The notes under the pieces were generated by a model, which was given only the letters and a program-made list of their open reading frames with translations, searched no databases and was not told where the DNA came from. From NCBI RefSeq assembly GCF_000373145.1, contig NZ_KB890602.1, forward strand, positions 338,483 to 402,482: 64,000 nt of DNA, written 5' to 3'. The DNA is from Thermus oshimai DSM 12092. Its GTDB lineage: Bacteria > Deinococcota > Deinococci > Deinococcales > Thermaceae. Each line of letters begins with the position of its first letter. The stretch's first letter is position 1. A program made the position numbers and the translations under genes. Shown in pieces: positions 15,095 to 24,149 of the stretch.

Positions 15095-15144
15095 CACCCT
15101 GGCCCCGGGCCTGGGGTAGCGGGCCGCACAATGATAAAGATACG

Positions 15145-15184
15145 CTCAACTCTCTTGACAAATGATTGGATGGAAGCTTACACT
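15145..15184 (+). promoter_or_regulatory. Heat-shock promoter of dnaK
   Basis: TTGACA (15155-15160), an 18-base spacer and TACACT (15179-15184). CTCA at 15145-15148 followed after five bases by CTTGACAA is repeated exactly at the clpB promoter. A TCAA-N5-TTGA inverted repeat overlaps the -35 box. No CIRCE element (TTAGCACTC-N9-GAGTGCTAA) was found. Confidence 0.75.
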
Positions 15185-15201: not shown

Positions 15202-17046
<1,845 letters not shown>

Positions 17047-17052
17047 GCCTGC

Positions 17053-17092
17053 CCCTTCCCCCGCCGCGGGGTCCCTCGCGGCGGGGGAAGGG
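17053..17092 (+). terminator. Strong hairpin between dnaK and grpE (attenuator or RNA stabiliser)
   Basis: Perfect 16-bp GC-rich stem (17053-17068 with 17077-17092), 8-base loop, no T-run, located in the 61-base gap. It may act as a partial terminator or protect the dnaK message 3' end, giving more DnaK than GrpE. Confidence 0.6.
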
Positions 17093-17107
17093 CCCAAGGA
17101 GGAAGGC

Positions 17108-17647
17108 ATGGAACGGGAAAACCACCTGGAGGAAACCCTGCAGGAAGACCTGAAGGAGGTGGCGGAGGAGACCCTTCGCCTGGAGGAGCGCCTGGCCCAG
17201 ACGGAGGCCGAACTCCAGGCCCTAAAGGACCGGTACCTCCGCCTCCTGGCCGACTTTGACAACTACCGCAAGCGCATGGCCGAGGAGCTCAAGGCGCGGG
17301 AGGAGGAGGGGGTTTTGAAAGCCCTAAGGGCCCTCCTTCCCGTGCTGGACGATCTGGAAAGGGCCTTGGAGTTCGCCGAGGCCAAGCCCGAGACCATCCT
17401 CCAGGGGGTGAGGGCGGTGCGGGAGGGCTTTTACCGCATCCTCTCCACCCTAGGGGTGGAGGAGGTGCCCGGGGAAGGGGAGGCCTTTGACCCCCGGCAC
17501 CACGAGGCCATCGGCCTCCTCCCGGGGGAGGCGGGCAAGGTGGCCAAGGTCTTCCAGCGGGGCTTCCGCCTGGGGGCGCACCTGGTCCGCCCGGCCCGGG
17601 TGGCCGTGGGCCAGGAGAAAAGCCCCGAGGAGGAGGGCGTGGAGTAG
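17108..17647 (+). CDS. grpE: Nucleotide exchange factor GrpE
   Basis: Releases ADP from DnaK and acts as a thermosensor in the cycle. 179 residues: a long N-terminal coiled coil (about 5-70, Glu/Leu/Arg heptads including RYLRLLADFDNYRKRM) and the C-terminal beta domain ending in PARVAVGQ. An AGGAGGAAGG Shine-Dalgarno sequence precedes the ATG. dnaJ follows after three bases. Confidence 0.96.
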   Translation: MERENHLEETLQEDLKEVAEETLRLEERLAQTEAELQALKDRYLRLLADFDNYRKRMAEELKAREEEGVLKALRALLPVLDDLERALEFAEAKPETILQGVRAVREGFYRILSTLGVEEVPGEGEAFDPRHHEAIGLLPGEAGKVAKVFQRGFRLGAHLVRPARVAVGQEKSPEEEGVE

Positions 17648-17650
17648 GCC

Positions 17651-18490
17651 ATGAAGGATTACTACGCCATCCTGGGCGTGCCTAAAAACGCCACCCAAGA
17701 GGAGATCAAGCGGGCCTACAAGCGCCTGGCCCGCCAGTACCACCCCGACGTGAACAAGAGCCCGGAGGCGGAGGAAAGGTTCAAGGAGATCAACGAGGCC
17801 TACGCCGTCCTCTCCGACCCCGAGAAGCGGAGGATCTACGACACCTACGGCACCACCCAGGCCCCGCCCCCTCCGCCCCCTGGGGGGTACGACTTCTCGG
17901 GCTTTGAGGTGGAGGATTTCTCCGACTTCTTCCAGGAGCTCTTCGGGGGCGGGCTCTTCGGGGGGTTTGGCCGGAGGCGGGGCCCTAGGCGGGGCCGGGA
18001 CCTACGGGCCGAGCTCCCCCTCACCCTGGAGGAGGCCTTCCGGGGCGGGGAAAGGGTCTTGGAGGTGGGGGGGCGGCGGGTCGCGGTCTCCATCCCGCCC
18101 GGGGTGGGGGAGGGGGCTACCCTCCGCCTTTCGGGGATGGGAGGCCCTGGGGAGCCGCCGGGGGACCTCCTCCTCACGGTGCGCCTCCTGCCCCACCCCC
18201 GCTTCCGCCTCGAGGGCCAGGACCTCTACGCCACCTTGGACGTCCCCGCGCCCATCGCCGTGGTGGGGGGCAAGGTGCGGGCTGAAACCCTGGAGGGGCC
18301 GGTGGAGGTCACCATCCCCCCCAGGACCCAGGCCGGGCGGAAGCTCCGCCTAAAGGGGAAGGGCTGGCCGGGGCCCGGGGGGCGGGGCGACCTCTACCTG
18401 GAGGTGCGCATCACCATCCCCGAGCGCCTCACCCCCGAGGAGGAGGCCCTTTGGAAGAAGCTTGCGGAGGTGTACCATGCTCGCGCGTAG
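17651..18490 (+). CDS. dnaJ: DnaJ co-chaperone without zinc finger
   Basis: Stimulates DnaK ATPase and delivers substrate. 279 residues: J domain (1-68) with HPD at 31-33, a short Pro/Gly/Phe-rich linker ([15 protein letters not shown]...[15 protein letters not shown]), then two beta-sandwich C-terminal domains. There is no CxxCxGxG repeat, so this is a type B/CbpA-like DnaJ, as known for Thermus DnaJ. Its last 14 bases overlap dafA. Confidence 0.95.
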
Positions 18491-18713
18491 CGCTTTCCTC
18501 TCCCTGGAGGCCCTGGAGGCCTACGGCCTCTCCTTGGGGGCGGTGCGGGCCTACGTGGAGATCGGCTTCGTGGAGCCCGTGGAGGTGGAGGGGCGGTGGT
18601 ACTTCCGGGAGGCCGATCTCCTGCGCATGGCCAAGGCGGAGCGCATCCGCCGCGATCTAGGGGCCAACCTCATCGGGGCGGCCTTGGTGGTGGAGATCCT
18701 GGAGCGTTCCTAG
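18477..18713 (+). CDS. dafA: DnaK-DnaJ assembly factor DafA (CbpM-like)
   Basis: 78 residues, matching T. thermophilus DafA, which holds three DnaK and three DnaJ molecules in one complex. ATG at 18477 follows GGAGG by six bases and lies inside the dnaJ end; an earlier in-frame start would lack a ribosome site. The sequence ([17 protein letters not shown]...[35 protein letters not shown]) looks like the MerR_2/CbpM family, whose members inhibit the DnaJ paralogue CbpA. This suggests DafA and CbpM are homologous; that link is my inference from pattern, not a search. Confidence 0.9.
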
Positions 18714-18816: not shown

Positions 18817-18855
18817 CTCATAAAACTTGACAATATGTTTGTTAGGTGATATGCT
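18817..18855 (+). promoter_or_regulatory. Heat-shock promoter of clpB
   Basis: TTGACA (18827-18832), exact 17-base spacer, TATGCT (18850-18855). CTCA at 18817-18820 followed after five bases by CTTGACAA matches the dnaK promoter. An inverted repeat GTTAG-N8-CTAAC (18841-18858) covers the -10 box. The 18714-18876 gap is locally AT-richer than its surroundings. Confidence 0.8.
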
Positions 18856-18876: not shown

Positions 18877-21441
18877 ATGAACCTGGAACGCTGGACCCAA
18901 GCCGCGCGGGAAGCCCTGGCCCAGGCCCAGGTCCTGGCCCGGAGCATGAAGCACCAGGCCCTGGACCGGGCCCACCTCTGGGCCGTGCTCCTTAAAGATC
19001 CCACGGGCCTCCCCGCGCGGCTTCTCGCCAAGGCCGGGGTGGAGGCGGCCGCGGTGCGCAAGGAGGCGGAGGCCGCCCTGGCCCGCCTCCCCCGGGTGGA
19101 GGGGGCCGAAGGGGGGCAGTACTTGACCCGCGAGCTCGCCGCCACCCTGGACCGGGCGGAGGCCCTCATGGGGGAGCTCGGGGACCGCTTCGTGGCCCTG
19201 GACACCCTGGTCCTGGCCTTGGCGGAATCCACCCCAGGCCTCCCGCCCCTGGAGGCCCTTAAGGCCGCGCTCAAAGAACTTAGAGGAGGTAAGACCGTGC
19301 AGACGGAACACGCGGAGGGCACCTACAACGCCTTAGAGCAGTACGGCATTGACCTGACCAGGATGGCCGCGGAGGGGAAGCTGGACCCGGTGATCGGCCG
19401 GGACGAGGAGATCCGCCGGGTGATCCAGATCCTCCTCAGGCGCACCAAGAACAACCCCGTGCTCATCGGCGAGCCGGGGGTGGGGAAGACGGCCATCGTG
19501 GAGGGCCTGGCCCAGCGCATCGTCAAGGGGGATGTGCCCGAGGGGCTGAAGGGGAAGCGCATCATCTCCCTGCAGATGGGCTCCCTCCTCGCCGGGGCCA
19601 AGTACCGCGGCGAGTTTGAGGAGCGCCTGAAGGCGGTGATCCAGGAGGTGGTGGGGAGCCAAGGGGAGATCATCCTCTTCATCGACGAGCTCCACACCGT
19701 GGTGGGGGCGGGCAAGGCGGAAGGGGCCGTGGACGCGGGCAACATGCTGAAGCCCGCCCTGGCCCGGGGGGAGCTCAGGCTCATCGGGGCCACCACCTTG
19801 GACGAGTACCGGGAGATTGAGAAGGACCCGGCCCTAGAGCGGCGCTTCCAGCCCGTCTATGTGGACGAGCCCAGCGTGGAGGAGACCATCTCCATCCTCC
19901 GGGGCCTTAAGGAGAAGTACGAGGTCCACCACGGGGTGCGCATCTCGGATAGCGCCCTCATCGCCGCGGCCACCCTTTCCCACCGCTACATCACGGAAAG
20001 GCGCCTGCCCGACAAGGCCATTGACCTCATTGACGAGGCCGCGGCCCGCCTGCGCATGGCCCTGGAAAGCGCCCCTGAGGAAATAGACGCCCTGGAGCGC
20101 CGGAAGCTCCAGCTGGAGATTGAGCGGGAGGCCCTGAAGAAGGAGAAGGACCCCGAGGCCCAGACCCGCCTTAAGGCCATAGAGGAGGAGATCGGGAAGC
20201 TTGCCCAGGAGATCGCCACCCTCCGGGCGGAGTGGGAGAAGGAGCGGGAGGTCCTAAGGCGCCTCCGCGAGGCCCAGCAGCGCCTGGACGAGGTGAGGCG
20301 GCAGATTGAGCTGGCGGAAAGGCAGTACGACCTGAACCGGGCCGCCGAGCTCCGCTACGGGGAGCTGCCCAAGCTCGAGGCCGAGGTGGAGGCCTTAAGC
20401 CAGGAGCTCAAGGGGGCCCGCTTCGTGCGCCTGGAGGTCACGGAGGAGGACATCGCCGAGATCGTCTCCCGCTGGACGGGCATCCCCGTGTCCCGCCTCC
20501 TGGAGGGGGAAAGGGAAAAGCTCTTGAGGCTTGAGGACGAGCTCCACAAGCGGGTGGTGGGGCAGGACGAGGCCATAAGGGCGGTGGCCGACGCCATCCG
20601 CCGGGCCCGGGCCGGCCTCAAGGACCCGAACCGCCCCATCGGGAGCTTCCTCTTCCTGGGCCCCACGGGGGTGGGGAAGACGGAGCTGGCCAAGACCCTG
20701 GCGGCCACCCTCTTTGACACCGAGGAGGCCATGGTGCGCATTGACATGACGGAGTACATGGAAAAGCACGCGGTCTCCCGGCTCATCGGGGCCCCGCCCG
20801 GGTACGTGGGCTACGAGGAGGGCGGCCAGCTCACGGAGGCCGTGCGCCGCAGGCCCTACACCGTCATCCTCTTTGATGAGATTGAAAAGGCCCACCCCGA
20901 TGTCTTCAACCTCCTCCTGCAGATCCTGGACGACGGCCGCCTCACGGACAGCCACGGGCGCACGGTGGACTTCCGCAACACGGTCATCATCCTCACCTCC
21001 AACCTGGGTAGCCCACTGATCCTGGAAGGGCTCCAGCAGGGTCTCCCCTACGAGGCCATCCGGGATCGGGTCTTCCGCGAGCTCCAGCGCCACTTCCGCC
21101 CCGAGTTCCTGAACCGTTTGGACGAGATCGTCCTCTTCCGGCCCCTCAGCAAGGAGCAGATCCGGCAGATCGTGGAGATCCAGCTGGCCAACCTGCGGGC
21201 GCGCCTAGGGGAGCGCCGCATCAGCTTGGAGCTCACGGAGGCCGCCAAGGACTTCCTGGCGGAGCGGGGCTACGACCCGGTCTTCGGGGCGAGGCCCCTC
21301 AAGCGGGTCATCCAGCGGGCGCTGGAAACGCCCTTGGCGGAAAAGATCCTCTCCGGGGAGATCAAGGACGGGGACAAGGTGGTGGTGGAGGCCACGCCCC
21401 AGGGCCTGAGCTTCCAGGTGGCCGCCCGGATAGAGGCCTAA
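18877..21441 (+). CDS. clpB: Protein disaggregase ClpB
   Basis: Hexameric AAA+ machine that pulls proteins out of aggregates with the DnaK system. 854 residues: N domain (1-140), NBD1 with Walker [14 protein letters not shown], the coiled-coil M domain (about 390-520, Glu/Arg-rich), NBD2 with Walker [15 protein letters not shown], and the C-terminal small domain. AGGAGGT precedes the ATG. An in-frame GTG at 19297 has its own AGGAGGT (19284-19290), predicting a shorter form beginning at Val141 without the N domain. Confidence 0.97.
19284..19299 (+). promoter_or_regulatory. Internal ribosome binding site and GTG start inside clpB
   Basis: AGGAGGT followed by six bases and an in-frame GTG (codon 141), exactly at the border between the N domain and NBD1. 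E. coli clpB makes a short form from an equivalent GTG. Confidence 0.7.
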
Positions 21442-21451
21442 GGAGGAGCCT

Positions 21452-21841
21452 ATGCGGCTGGAGGAGTTCCTCGCCAAGGCTTACCAGGACGAGCTTCTGG
21501 ACGCCTTCCGGGCGGAGCGGGCGGCGGAAGGGGTGCCCTACCCCCATGTCCGCGCCCTCCTCCTGGAGGTGGCGAAAAGGGAGCGGGCCCACGCGGAGGC
21601 CATCGCCGAGGCCCTAAGGGCCCGTTCCCTGCCCCTTCCCCCAAGCCCTAAGGCGGAGGAGATCGCCCCCGAGGCCCTCCTCCGCCTCCTCTCGGAGGAG
21701 GGGTTTGACCGGGCCCACTATTTGGAAAGCACCTTCCCCGACCCCGCACTGGAGGCCCTCTTCACCCGCATCGGGCGGGAGGAGGCCCTGAACCAGGAGG
21801 CGGTGCGCAAGGCGGTGGTGCTGATGGGAGGTAGCCTATGA
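21452..21841 (+). CDS. Unknown helical protein, possibly ferritin-like
   Basis: 129 residues, not recognised as a named family. It is predicted all-helical, with LLLEVAKRERAHAEAIAEAL and IGREEALNQEAVRKAVVL helices that carry Glu/His in ferritin- or rubrerythrin-like spacing; this is weak evidence. Good Shine-Dalgarno sequence (AAGGAGGAG). It follows clpB by 10 bases and its stop overlaps the next ATG (ATGA), so it is part of the heat-shock operon and may work with the eRF1-like protein. Confidence 0.6.
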   Translation: MRLEEFLAKAYQDELLDAFRAERAAEGVPYPHVRALLLEVAKRERAHAEAIAEALRARSLPLPPSPKAEEIAPEALLRLLSEEGFDRAHYLESTFPDPALEALFTRIGREEALNQEAVRKAVVLMGGSL

Positions 21842-23022
21842 TCCGCAAAGAGGAGATTCGGCGCATTAAGGAGACCGTTCTGCCCAAGGAGGCCCCGGTC
21901 CTTTCCCTCTACCTGGATGTAAACCCCGCCCACCCCGAAAACGCGGGGCGGGCCTACGCCCTTCGGGCCAAGGACGCCATGAAGGCCCTGGGGGTGCCCG
22001 AGGGGCTTATGGAAAGGGTCTTGGAGGTGCTCAAGAACCAGGTGCTGGAGGCCAAGACCGCGGTCTTCTTCGTGGGGGAAGACCTGTTTGAGACCCTCCT
22101 CCTCCAGGTGGAGCTGCCCTTGGTGCGGAGCGTCGAGACCGCTTTCCTGGACGAGAAGGGGGGGCGCTACCTGGTGGACGGGGTTCTGGCCCACTGGGGC
22201 GAGCCCTTTGCCCTCCCCTTGGTCTACGCCCTGGACGAGTACGAGCGCTACGGCGTGGTCTACGTGGACGGGGAAAGGTGGCGGGTCTTTGAGATCTTCC
22301 TCGGCGAGATAGAGGAGGTGGAGGACGCCTTCTTGGCCCTGGATACCGAGGCCTGGCGGCGCCTCTCCCTGGATGCCCCCGGCCGGCGCTTCAACCTGGG
22401 AGGGATCGCCCGGGGTGGGGCGGGGCAGGACCTCTTCGCCAAGCGCCTCGAGGCCTGGGAGGGCCGCTTCTACAAGACCCTGGCCCACGAGCTGGAGCGC
22501 CTTTCTGAGGCGCGGGGCTTCACCCGCCTCATCCTCATGGGCCCCCTGGAGCACACCGCCCTCTTCAAGGCCCACCTCTCCAAGCGGCTCAGGGAGCGGG
22601 TGGTGGCGGAGCTCCCCTCCCTGCCCCACCCCGGGGCCACCCCGGGCCAGGTCTTAAAGCGCCTGGAGCCCGAACTTTCCAAGATTGAGCGGGAGGCGGA
22701 GCTCAGGCTCCTTAAGGAGCTGGAGGAGGCCTACCCCAAGGCCCTCTTCGGCCCCGAGGTGCTGGAAAGGCTCCAGGAGGGCCGGGTGGAGCTTTGGGTT
22801 CTCCCCTGGAGCCTGGGGGAGGAGGTGTACCTCTGCGACGGCCTGGCCTTTGCGGAGGAGGCCAGGGCCTTGGCCTTCTGCGAGGCCCCTTTGAAGAAGC
22901 CCCTCGCCCTTCTGGTGCCGGAGCTTTCCGCGGGCTACGGCGCCAAGGTGGAGTTCGTGCGGGGCGAGGCGGAAAAGGAGCTGCTGGAGCGCGGCGGCAT
23001 GGCCGCCCGCTTGCGGTGGTAA
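21838..23022 (+). CDS. Bacterial eRF1-like protein (baeRF family)
   Basis: 394 residues resembling bacterial relatives of archaeal/eukaryotic release factor eRF1. N-terminal VLSLYLDVNPAHPENAGRAY is typical of baeRF families. Residues 193-197 read GGAGQ in a basic/aromatic setting (IARGGAGQDLFAKRL), like the peptidyl-tRNA-hydrolysing GGQ loop of eRF1. The C-terminal part (LWVLPWSLGEEVYLCDGLAF...) resembles the eRF1 domain 3 region. Its place between clpB and hsp20 suggests a role with stalled ribosomes or misfolded nascent chains during heat stress. Activity is unproven; some family members may be inactive. Confidence 0.7.
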   Translation: MIRKEEIRRIKETVLPKEAPVLSLYLDVNPAHPENAGRAYALRAKDAMKALGVPEGLMERVLEVLKNQVLEAKTAVFFVGEDLFETLLLQVELPLVRSVETAFLDEKGGRYLVDGVLAHWGEPFALPLVYALDEYERYGVVYVDGERWRVFEIFLGEIEEVEDAFLALDTEAWRRLSLDAPGRRFNLGGIARGGAGQDLFAKRLEAWEGRFYKTLAHELERLSEARGFTRLILMGPLEHTALFKAHLSKRLRERVVAELPSLPHPGATPGQVLKRLEPELSKIEREAELRLLKELEEAYPKALFGPEVLERLQEGRVELWVLPWSLGEEVYLCDGLAFAEEARALAFCEAPLKKPLALLVPELSAGYGAKVEFVRGEAEKELLERGGMAARLRW

Positions 23023-23037: not shown

Positions 23038-23451
23038 ATGGTGCGGTTTGACCCCTTCAAGGAGCTGGAGGAGCTTCAGGAGCGGCTGGCCCGGGCCCTG
23101 GGGGCCCAGGGGCAGGGGCCCAGGACCTACGCCCCCCCGGTGGACATCGTGGAGGACGGCGAGGGGCTTCACATCCTGGTCTACCTCCCGGGGGTGGACC
23201 CGGAGAAGGTGGAGGTGGTGGCCGAGGAGGGCGTGCTCTCCGTGAAGGCGGAGCGGCCTTTTGAGAAGCGGGAGGGCGCCACCTACCACCGCCTGGAGGG
23301 CCCCTACGGCACCTTTGCCCGGGGCTTCAACGTGCCCAACACCTTCGACCTCTCCAGGGTGCAGGCCCGCTTCCGCCACGGGGTGCTCCACCTTCTCGTC
23401 CCGCGGGCGGAGGCCACCCGGCCCAAGAAGATCCAGGTGCAGGTGGAATGA
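23038..23451 (+). CDS. Small heat-shock protein, Hsp20/alpha-crystallin family
   Basis: ATP-independent holdase. 137 residues: a short N-terminal arm (MVRFDPFKELEELQERLARALG), the alpha-crystallin domain (about 38-125) with VDIVEDGEGLHILVYLPGV and the signature FARGFNVPNTFDLSRVQARFRHGVLHLLVPR, and a short C-terminal tail. Strong Shine-Dalgarno sequence AAGGAGGTGAGG. Fourth gene of the clpB operon. Confidence 0.93.
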   Translation: MVRFDPFKELEELQERLARALGAQGQGPRTYAPPVDIVEDGEGLHILVYLPGVDPEKVEVVAEEGVLSVKAERPFEKREGATYHRLEGPYGTFARGFNVPNTFDLSRVQARFRHGVLHLLVPRAEATRPKKIQVQVE

Positions 23452-23462
23452 GGAGGTGAGGT

Positions 23463-24149
23463 ATGCGGCGCACCACGCGGTACATCCTGGCCACCTCCAA
23501 CCCCATGGGGGACTTGGAGGCGTTGGAGAAGCTGGTCCGCCTGGCCCCGGACACGGGGGCGGACGCCATCGCCCTGGTGGGCAACCTCATGCCCAAGACG
23601 GCGAAGAGCCGGGACTACGCGGCCTTCTTCCGCATCCTCTCCGAGGCCCATCTCCCCACCGCCTACGTCCCGGGCCCCTTGGACGCCCCCATCTGGGAGT
23701 ATCTCCGGGAAGCGGCCAACGTTGAGCTCGTCCGCCCGGAGATGCGCAACGTCCACGAGACCTTCACCTTCTGGAAGGGGCCCTACCTGGTGGCGGGCAT
23801 TGGGGGCGAGATCCTGGACGACGGGGAGCCCGAGGAGAAGGAGGCCCTCCGTTACCCCGCCTGGGTGGCGGAGTACCACCTGAAGGCCCTCTGGGACCTC
23901 AAGGACTACCCCAAGATCTTCCTCTTCCACACCATGCCCCACCACAAGGGGCTGGGCGAGGGGGGGAGCCACGAGGTGGCCCACCTCATCAAGACCCATA
24001 ACCCCCTCCTGGTCCTGGTGGCCGGCCGGGGGCAGAAGCACGAGATCTTGGGGGCGAGCTGGGTGGTGGTCCCGGGGGACCTTTCCGAAGGGGAGTATAG
24101 CCTCTTGGACCTCCGCTCCAGGAAGCTGGAGACGGGGAACGTGCGCTAG
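23463..24149 (+). CDS. Degenerate calcineurin-like phosphoesterase
   Basis: 228 residues, matching the T. thermophilus protein TT1561 that I recall as a solved calcineurin-like fold. The normal metal motifs are altered: the first D-x-H is replaced by ATSNPMGDLEAL, and the GDxxD motif reads GNLMPK, while later HTMPHHKG and GRGQKHE remain. Metal binding or catalysis may therefore be lost or unusual. AGGAGGTGAGG precedes the ATG. It is the last gene before a strong terminator, so it belongs to the heat-shock operon. Confidence 0.8.
   Translation: MRRTTRYILATSNPMGDLEALEKLVRLAPDTGADAIALVGNLMPKTAKSRDYAAFFRILSEAHLPTAYVPGPLDAPIWEYLREAANVELVRPEMRNVHETFTFWKGPYLVAGIGGEILDDGEPEEKEALRYPAWVAEYHLKALWDLKDYPKIFLFHTMPHHKGLGEGGSHEVAHLIKTHNPLLVLVAGRGQKHEILGASWVVVPGDLSEGEYSLLDLRSRKLETGNVR

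Follow-up and report, generated by a model that had tools for sequence, protein, structure and literature searches.

The window analysed here is a 64,000-nucleotide stretch of the Thermus oshimai DSM 12092 genome (contig NZ_KB890602.1), and it carries a chaperone gene cluster on the + strand (Table 1). The genes run in the order dnaK, grpE, dnaJ, a small MerR-like gene, clpB, a ferritin-like gene, baeRF10, hsp20, a metallophosphoesterase gene, a thioredoxin-like gene and a second hsp20, mostly with short gaps between them; the translations served to identify clpB, dnaK, grpE, dnaJ, the thioredoxin gene and the second hsp20. The baeRF10 reading frame is intact in the window, with 394 codons and an ATG start. 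An earlier note on this DNA had described a 394-residue gene between clpB and hsp20, with ATGA coupling and GGAGQ at residues 193-197, which translation and the open reading frames confirmed; its location inside a heat-shock gene cluster was borne out by synteny in Thermus. The direct upstream neighbour of baeRF10 is the ferritin-like gene, not clpB, and 10 bases separate clpB from the ferritin-like gene. The 4-base ATGA overlap of the ferritin-like gene with baeRF10 was retained in nearly all Thermus loci.

Table 1. Positions of the genes and sequence elements of the cluster in the window
Feature	Position	Strand	Basis
dnaK-grpE-dnaJ	15202..18490	+	ORFs; synteny in loci L062, L063, L066, L067
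CTTGACA-17-TATGCT promoter-like element before clpB	18826..18855	+	Scan: 2 sites in 10.2 kb vs 0.3 expected
clpB disaggregase	18877..21441	+	Translation; conserved synteny, 87-91% identity in Thermus
Ferritin-like/rubrerythrin-like protein, 129 aa	21452..21841	+	Pfam Rubrerythrin 25.5 bits; predicted structure
GGAGGT Shine-Dalgarno-like sequence (21827-21832) and ATGA stop-start overlap	21827..21841	+	Sequence; couples ferritin-like gene to baeRF10
baeRF family 10/Balon-superfamily gene, 394 aa (subject of this analysis)	21838..23022	+	Pfam PF18854; profile matches
GGAGQ codons, residues 193-197	22414..22428	+	eRF1 GGQ-loop position (58-orthologue alignment; gap-free profile alignment to eRF1 RGGQSALRF)
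Hsp20/alpha-crystallin small heat-shock protein	23038..23451	+	Pfam HSP20 E 1.8e-17
Calcineurin-like metallophosphoesterase, downstream	23463..24149	+	Pfam Metallophos_3 E 9.4e-68

The order clpB, ferritin-like gene, baeRF10, hsp20 and phosphoesterase gene was common to the Thermus-genus genomes with full-length loci. Both the ferritin-like gene and hsp20 adjoin baeRF10 in Thermus and also in a second family (f4), whose loci have no ClpB close by; in one genus (g4), the genomes carry baeRF10 but no ferritin-like gene next to it. The predicted structure of the ferritin-like protein had a pLDDT of 87, and its best structural match was the Dps-like PA4880 (Z 15.7). Almost all of its structural matches were ferritins, bacterioferritins, Dps-like proteins and rubrerythrins, with weak Foldseek E-values (7e-3 at best). 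The protein has conserved RExxHA and EExxN motifs, with Asn in place of the usual rubrerythrin His. Between dnaJ and clpB, positions 18462-18713 encode a small protein of the MerR_2 type, 83 aa long when counted from the listed start and with an HTH family match of 43.5 bits; we take it to stand where T. thermophilus has DafA.

The CTTGACA sequence before clpB was kept in all eight aligned loci. In T. oshimai, the promoter-like element overlaps a degenerate HAIR-like inverted repeat, and CTTGA-N11-TCAAG overlapping the -35 box was found in 6 out of 8 aligned loci, spaced as in HAIR, the operator of HspR (CTTGAGT-N7-ACTCAAG; PMC6102357). These promoter observations concern the window and loci L031, L048, L063, L066, L067 and L071. 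Within the window the HAIR-like pattern is not significant alone, the copy upstream of clpB having two mismatches and being 1 of 38 such matches. Upstream of dnaK (15120-15184), GCTCAA(G/C)TCTCTTGAC, a TCAAG-N3-CTTGA arrangement, was kept in 4 out of 5 aligned loci. We infer that the cluster is transcribed as one unit and is heat-induced.

Membership of the aeRF1 superfamily

The T. oshimai protein matched Pfam baeRF_family10 (PF18854) with 118 bits (E 5.3e-34; cut-off 27.1); the next-best baeRF family was family 5, with 73.5 bits. All 25 family members scanned matched baeRF_family10. When the single sequence was searched against the PDB, the sole credible match was Balon MSMEG_1130 (6e-5). 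A profile built from 25 orthologues (A1) matched MSMEG_1130 at E 1.5e-20 in the same database, in two stretches that correspond to the N-terminal part and to the middle and C-terminal part. Further matches were numerous eRF1 entries (the best at 2.2e-7), the peptide chain release factor subunit 1 structure 4af1 (6e-6), Pelota (4e-4) and Rv2629 (1e-3). The NCBIfam MSMEG_1130 hibernation-factor model was matched by 25 out of 25 members scanned, and the aRF1 model by 11. The scores of the T. oshimai protein against the NCBIfam Balon models were 56 bits for the MSMEG_1130 model (equivalog cut-off 480) and 15 bits for the other (cut-off 320), so it is a Balon homologue outside those equivalog groups. 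Because of the Pfam, PDB profile and NCBIfam matches taken together, we regard homology to the aeRF1 superfamily as secure by sequence, and the protein is eRF1-like (baeRF), as the earlier note had read it. The AlphaFold model of the T. oshimai protein, made with three sequences (the window protein and those of two other loci), reached a pLDDT of only 46; the fold assignment therefore rests on sequence profiles.

NIKS was absent from the first 130 residues of the T. oshimai protein and of three relatives checked. The gene is present as one copy in the T. oshimai genome, and a baeRF10 match was present in 79 of the 111 genomes of the phylum. Searching the T. oshimai genome for acVLRF1 gave no match, and the acVLRF1 model matched 3 out of 25 family members weakly. 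Neither the viral-contig scan nor the phage records contained baeRF10 relatives, and the plasmid scan yielded just two, both from Deinococcus, whose loops read RSDSGTD and have no Gln at the aligned place. Family 10 members on Deinococcus megaplasmids (L078 and L079), which match baeRF_family10, are named "VLRF1 family aeRF1-type release factor" in the plasmid records.

The protein resembles Balon (MSMEG_1130, Rv2629 and Psychrobacter Balon) in its aeRF1-type architecture, its similar length, the absence of NIKS and its best PDB and NCBIfam match, and in having stress-operon neighbours that include Hsp20, DnaK and DnaJ. However, sequence similarity to Balon is low, the Thermus orthologues bear GGAGQ, and baeRF10 adjoins a ferritin-like gene, not RaiA/HPF. 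With eRF1/aRF1 it shares homologous middle and C-terminal domains (E 2e-7) and the RGG, but it has Ala in the column aligned with the catalytic Gln and no NIKS, and RF1 and RF2 serve termination in T. oshimai. The profile match to Pelota raises the idea of a Pelota/Dom34-like non-catalytic rescue factor that would enter the A site of stalled ribosomes and, together with a GTPase or some other partner, would favour their splitting or recycling over their storage. The Dom34/Pelota family is likewise without the Gln (PMC6514570), and protein quality control is the theme of the operon. We nevertheless consider such a role quite unlikely: the match to Balon is much stronger, no dedicated GTPase or ABCE1-like partner was seen in the gene cluster, and tmRNA is present for rescue.

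The GGAGQ loop across Deinococcota

The GGxGQ pattern appeared in 0.2% of shuffles of the baeRF10 protein, and GGQ, GGxQ and GGxxQ jointly in up to about 9%; strings of the GGQ/GGxQ/GGxxQ type occurred about 20 times among the long ORFs in the window. Given these rates and counts, the GGAGQ motif by itself is weak evidence, and the reality of the gene is carried by homology, not by the motif. Literal GGQ is absent from the T. oshimai protein. In the gap-free alignment of the profile (ARGGAGKDKF) with eRF1 (GRGGQSALRF), the catalytic Gln of eRF1 falls on Ala195, and Gln197 lies two places later. An alternative register, Gly-Gly-x-small-Gln, is possible, and its spacing in the Thermus loop is like that of GGxSQ in aVLRF-1/acVLRF-1, whose conserved Gln has been compared with that of catalytically active aeRF-1s (PMC6514570). 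The best matches of the T. oshimai protein, by contrast, are Balon-type.

The loop comparison covered 63 distinct sequences, all of them from Deinococcota, and column counts were taken from 25 Thermus-type and 33 other orthologues. The family signature around the loop reads R-G-G-x-G-x-D-x-F-x-x-R...W..RF. Column 197 held Gln in 25 out of 25 Thermus-type sequences, encoded by CAG in 23 and CAA in 2. The other 33 orthologues had Lys (14), Thr (5), Arg (5), Met (3), Gln (2), Ser (2), Ala (1) and Val (1), and the 31 without Gln included all other Thermaceae genera examined. Outside the Thermus-type group, D198 and R203 were each present in 33 out of 33 sequences and W207 in 32 out of 33. The loop from W173 to D198 was constant at 26 residues in Thermus and ranged from 23 to 35 residues elsewhere; in T. 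oshimai it has five Lys/Arg, two Asp/Glu and two aromatic residues. Five Thermaceae copies had AA(A/P)(D/N)(T/A)D and thus no Gly pair. In the tree, the Thermus-type rows formed one group (support 100/99), and the remaining Gln cases (L043 and L058) fell in distant groups. We also considered a Gln shifted elsewhere in the loop and rejected this, as 22 of the 33 non-Thermus-type orthologues had no Gln at any loop position and just two had one within six residues of D198. Within Deinococcota the loop Gln is essentially a Thermus trait. This differs from the published description of family 10, the family to which the domain match assigns the protein and which is said there to have a well-conserved Gln (PMC6514570), whereas in Deinococcota only Thermus and two isolated cases have it.

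The expected conservation of GGAGQ therefore held in part: the Gln is fixed in Thermus, but the other Thermaceae and the other families of the order have mostly Lys, Arg or Thr, with five Thermaceae copies lacking the Gly pair. The same column, together with Ala195 in the eRF1 register, left nascent-chain release through GGAGQ, as the earlier note had proposed it, unsupported. An active peptidyl-tRNA hydrolase, with Gln197 acting like the Gln of GGxSQ in archaeal and actinobacterial VLRF1 and with ClpB and Hsp20 handling the released chains, would fit the position of GGAGQ in the homologous loop, the invariant Gln and constant loop length in Thermus, and the proposal that family 10 members are possible hydrolases (PMC6514570). 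We consider it unlikely, since Gln is missing from most other orthologues, including a syntenic Thermus copy with GGAGM (L027), and in the gap-free alignment Ala195 occupies the catalytic place of eRF1. A Balon-type loop could also have gained and fixed a catalytic Gln (GGxGQ) on the Thermus stem, which would have produced a factor with two functions, the parking of heat-stressed ribosomes and the release of their nascent chains to the ClpB and Hsp20 of the same gene cluster; this, too, seems rather improbable to us.

Several individual copies deserve mention. The syntenic copy with GGAGM (L027/L063; genome G069) is a strongly diverged Thermus baeRF10 with 57% identity, whereas identity is 75-92% for most of the genes around it. 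Two baeRF10 copies were found in several other Thermaceae genomes (G025, G027, G029, G035, G038, G041 and G043). Those of G041 have GGSGK and AAANT, the latter without the Gly pair, and those of G025 have GGSGK and GGADT; there is no Gln in any of the four. In Thermus sp. JCM 17653 (L031, 5001-6182), two compensating frame changes scramble the middle of the baeRF10 protein and are probably assembly errors.

A Balon-like reading of baeRF10

Our preferred reading is that baeRF10 probably encodes a non-catalytic, Balon-like A-site ribosome hibernation factor that is made with chaperones. Under heat or other proteotoxic stress, the protein would be made together with ClpB, Hsp20 and the ferritin-like protein. 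As a tRNA-shaped, three-domain protein that reads no stop codon, it would enter the ribosomal A site, where its middle-domain loop would reach the peptidyl-transferase centre and block or protect it with no hydrolysis of peptidyl-tRNA. EF-Tu may be its partner. Those of its relatives that are characterised best occupy the A site, do not read the mRNA, and either protect the ribosome or silence it; Balon, MSMEG_1130 and Rv2629 were described as hibernation factors without GGQ (PMC10901736). The same study counts T. thermophilus among the species with Balon homologues, and the Balon neighbourhoods that it shows, one panel of which is for Dein-Therm, include Hsp20, DnaK and DnaJ (PMC10901736).

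We favour a Balon-like factor because MSMEG_1130 (1.5e-20) outscored eRF1 (2e-7) in the profile search. As GGAGQ is conserved only within Thermus, parking of ribosomes is likelier than cutting of nascent chains, and three features speak against the family functioning as release enzymes: no Gln is conserved among the orthologues as a whole, NIKS is missing, and loop length varies outside Thermus. Variation in loop length, or lack of constraint, has been tied to non-catalytic families (PMC6514570), and we therefore counted the range of 23 to 35 residues for the non-catalytic reading. RF1, RF2 and tmRNA are all encoded in the T. oshimai genome, so termination and rescue would not depend on baeRF10. 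HPF is also encoded there, on another contig than baeRF10. The observations that count against hibernation are the fixation of Gln197 in Thermus through both Gln codons, the resemblance of GGxGQ to GGxSQ, the singling out of family 10 for its well-conserved Gln (PMC6514570), and the matches to the NCBIfam Balon models far below the equivalog cut-offs. The protein might instead have left the ribosome for another role, such as RNA handling or work in a module with the ferritin-like protein and Hsp20. The triad of these genes, kept without nearby clpB in another family, would suit such a role, but R203 and R210, basic residues of the post-loop helix, are kept, as expected for LSU rRNA binding (PMC6514570), and we regard a role off the ribosome as very improbable.

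Family 10 and the operon link were already known: Burroughs and Aravind (2019) described the family as possibly active, with a well-conserved Gln (PMC6514570), and the neighbourhood was reported with Balon (PMC10901736). What is new in this analysis is the restriction of the Gln to Thermus within Deinococcota and the conserved ferritin-like partner. The lineage-specific Gln makes the GGxGQ string a caution against inferring catalysis. The occurrence of GGAGQ, GGSGK, AAADT and GGAGM in one phylum offers a natural test series for the role of the loop at the peptidyl-transferase centre, and T. thermophilus, a tractable thermophile, provides ribosomes that are a standard structural model. If the Balon-like reading is true, an A-site hibernation factor in a chaperone operon would link heat shock to ribosome storage.
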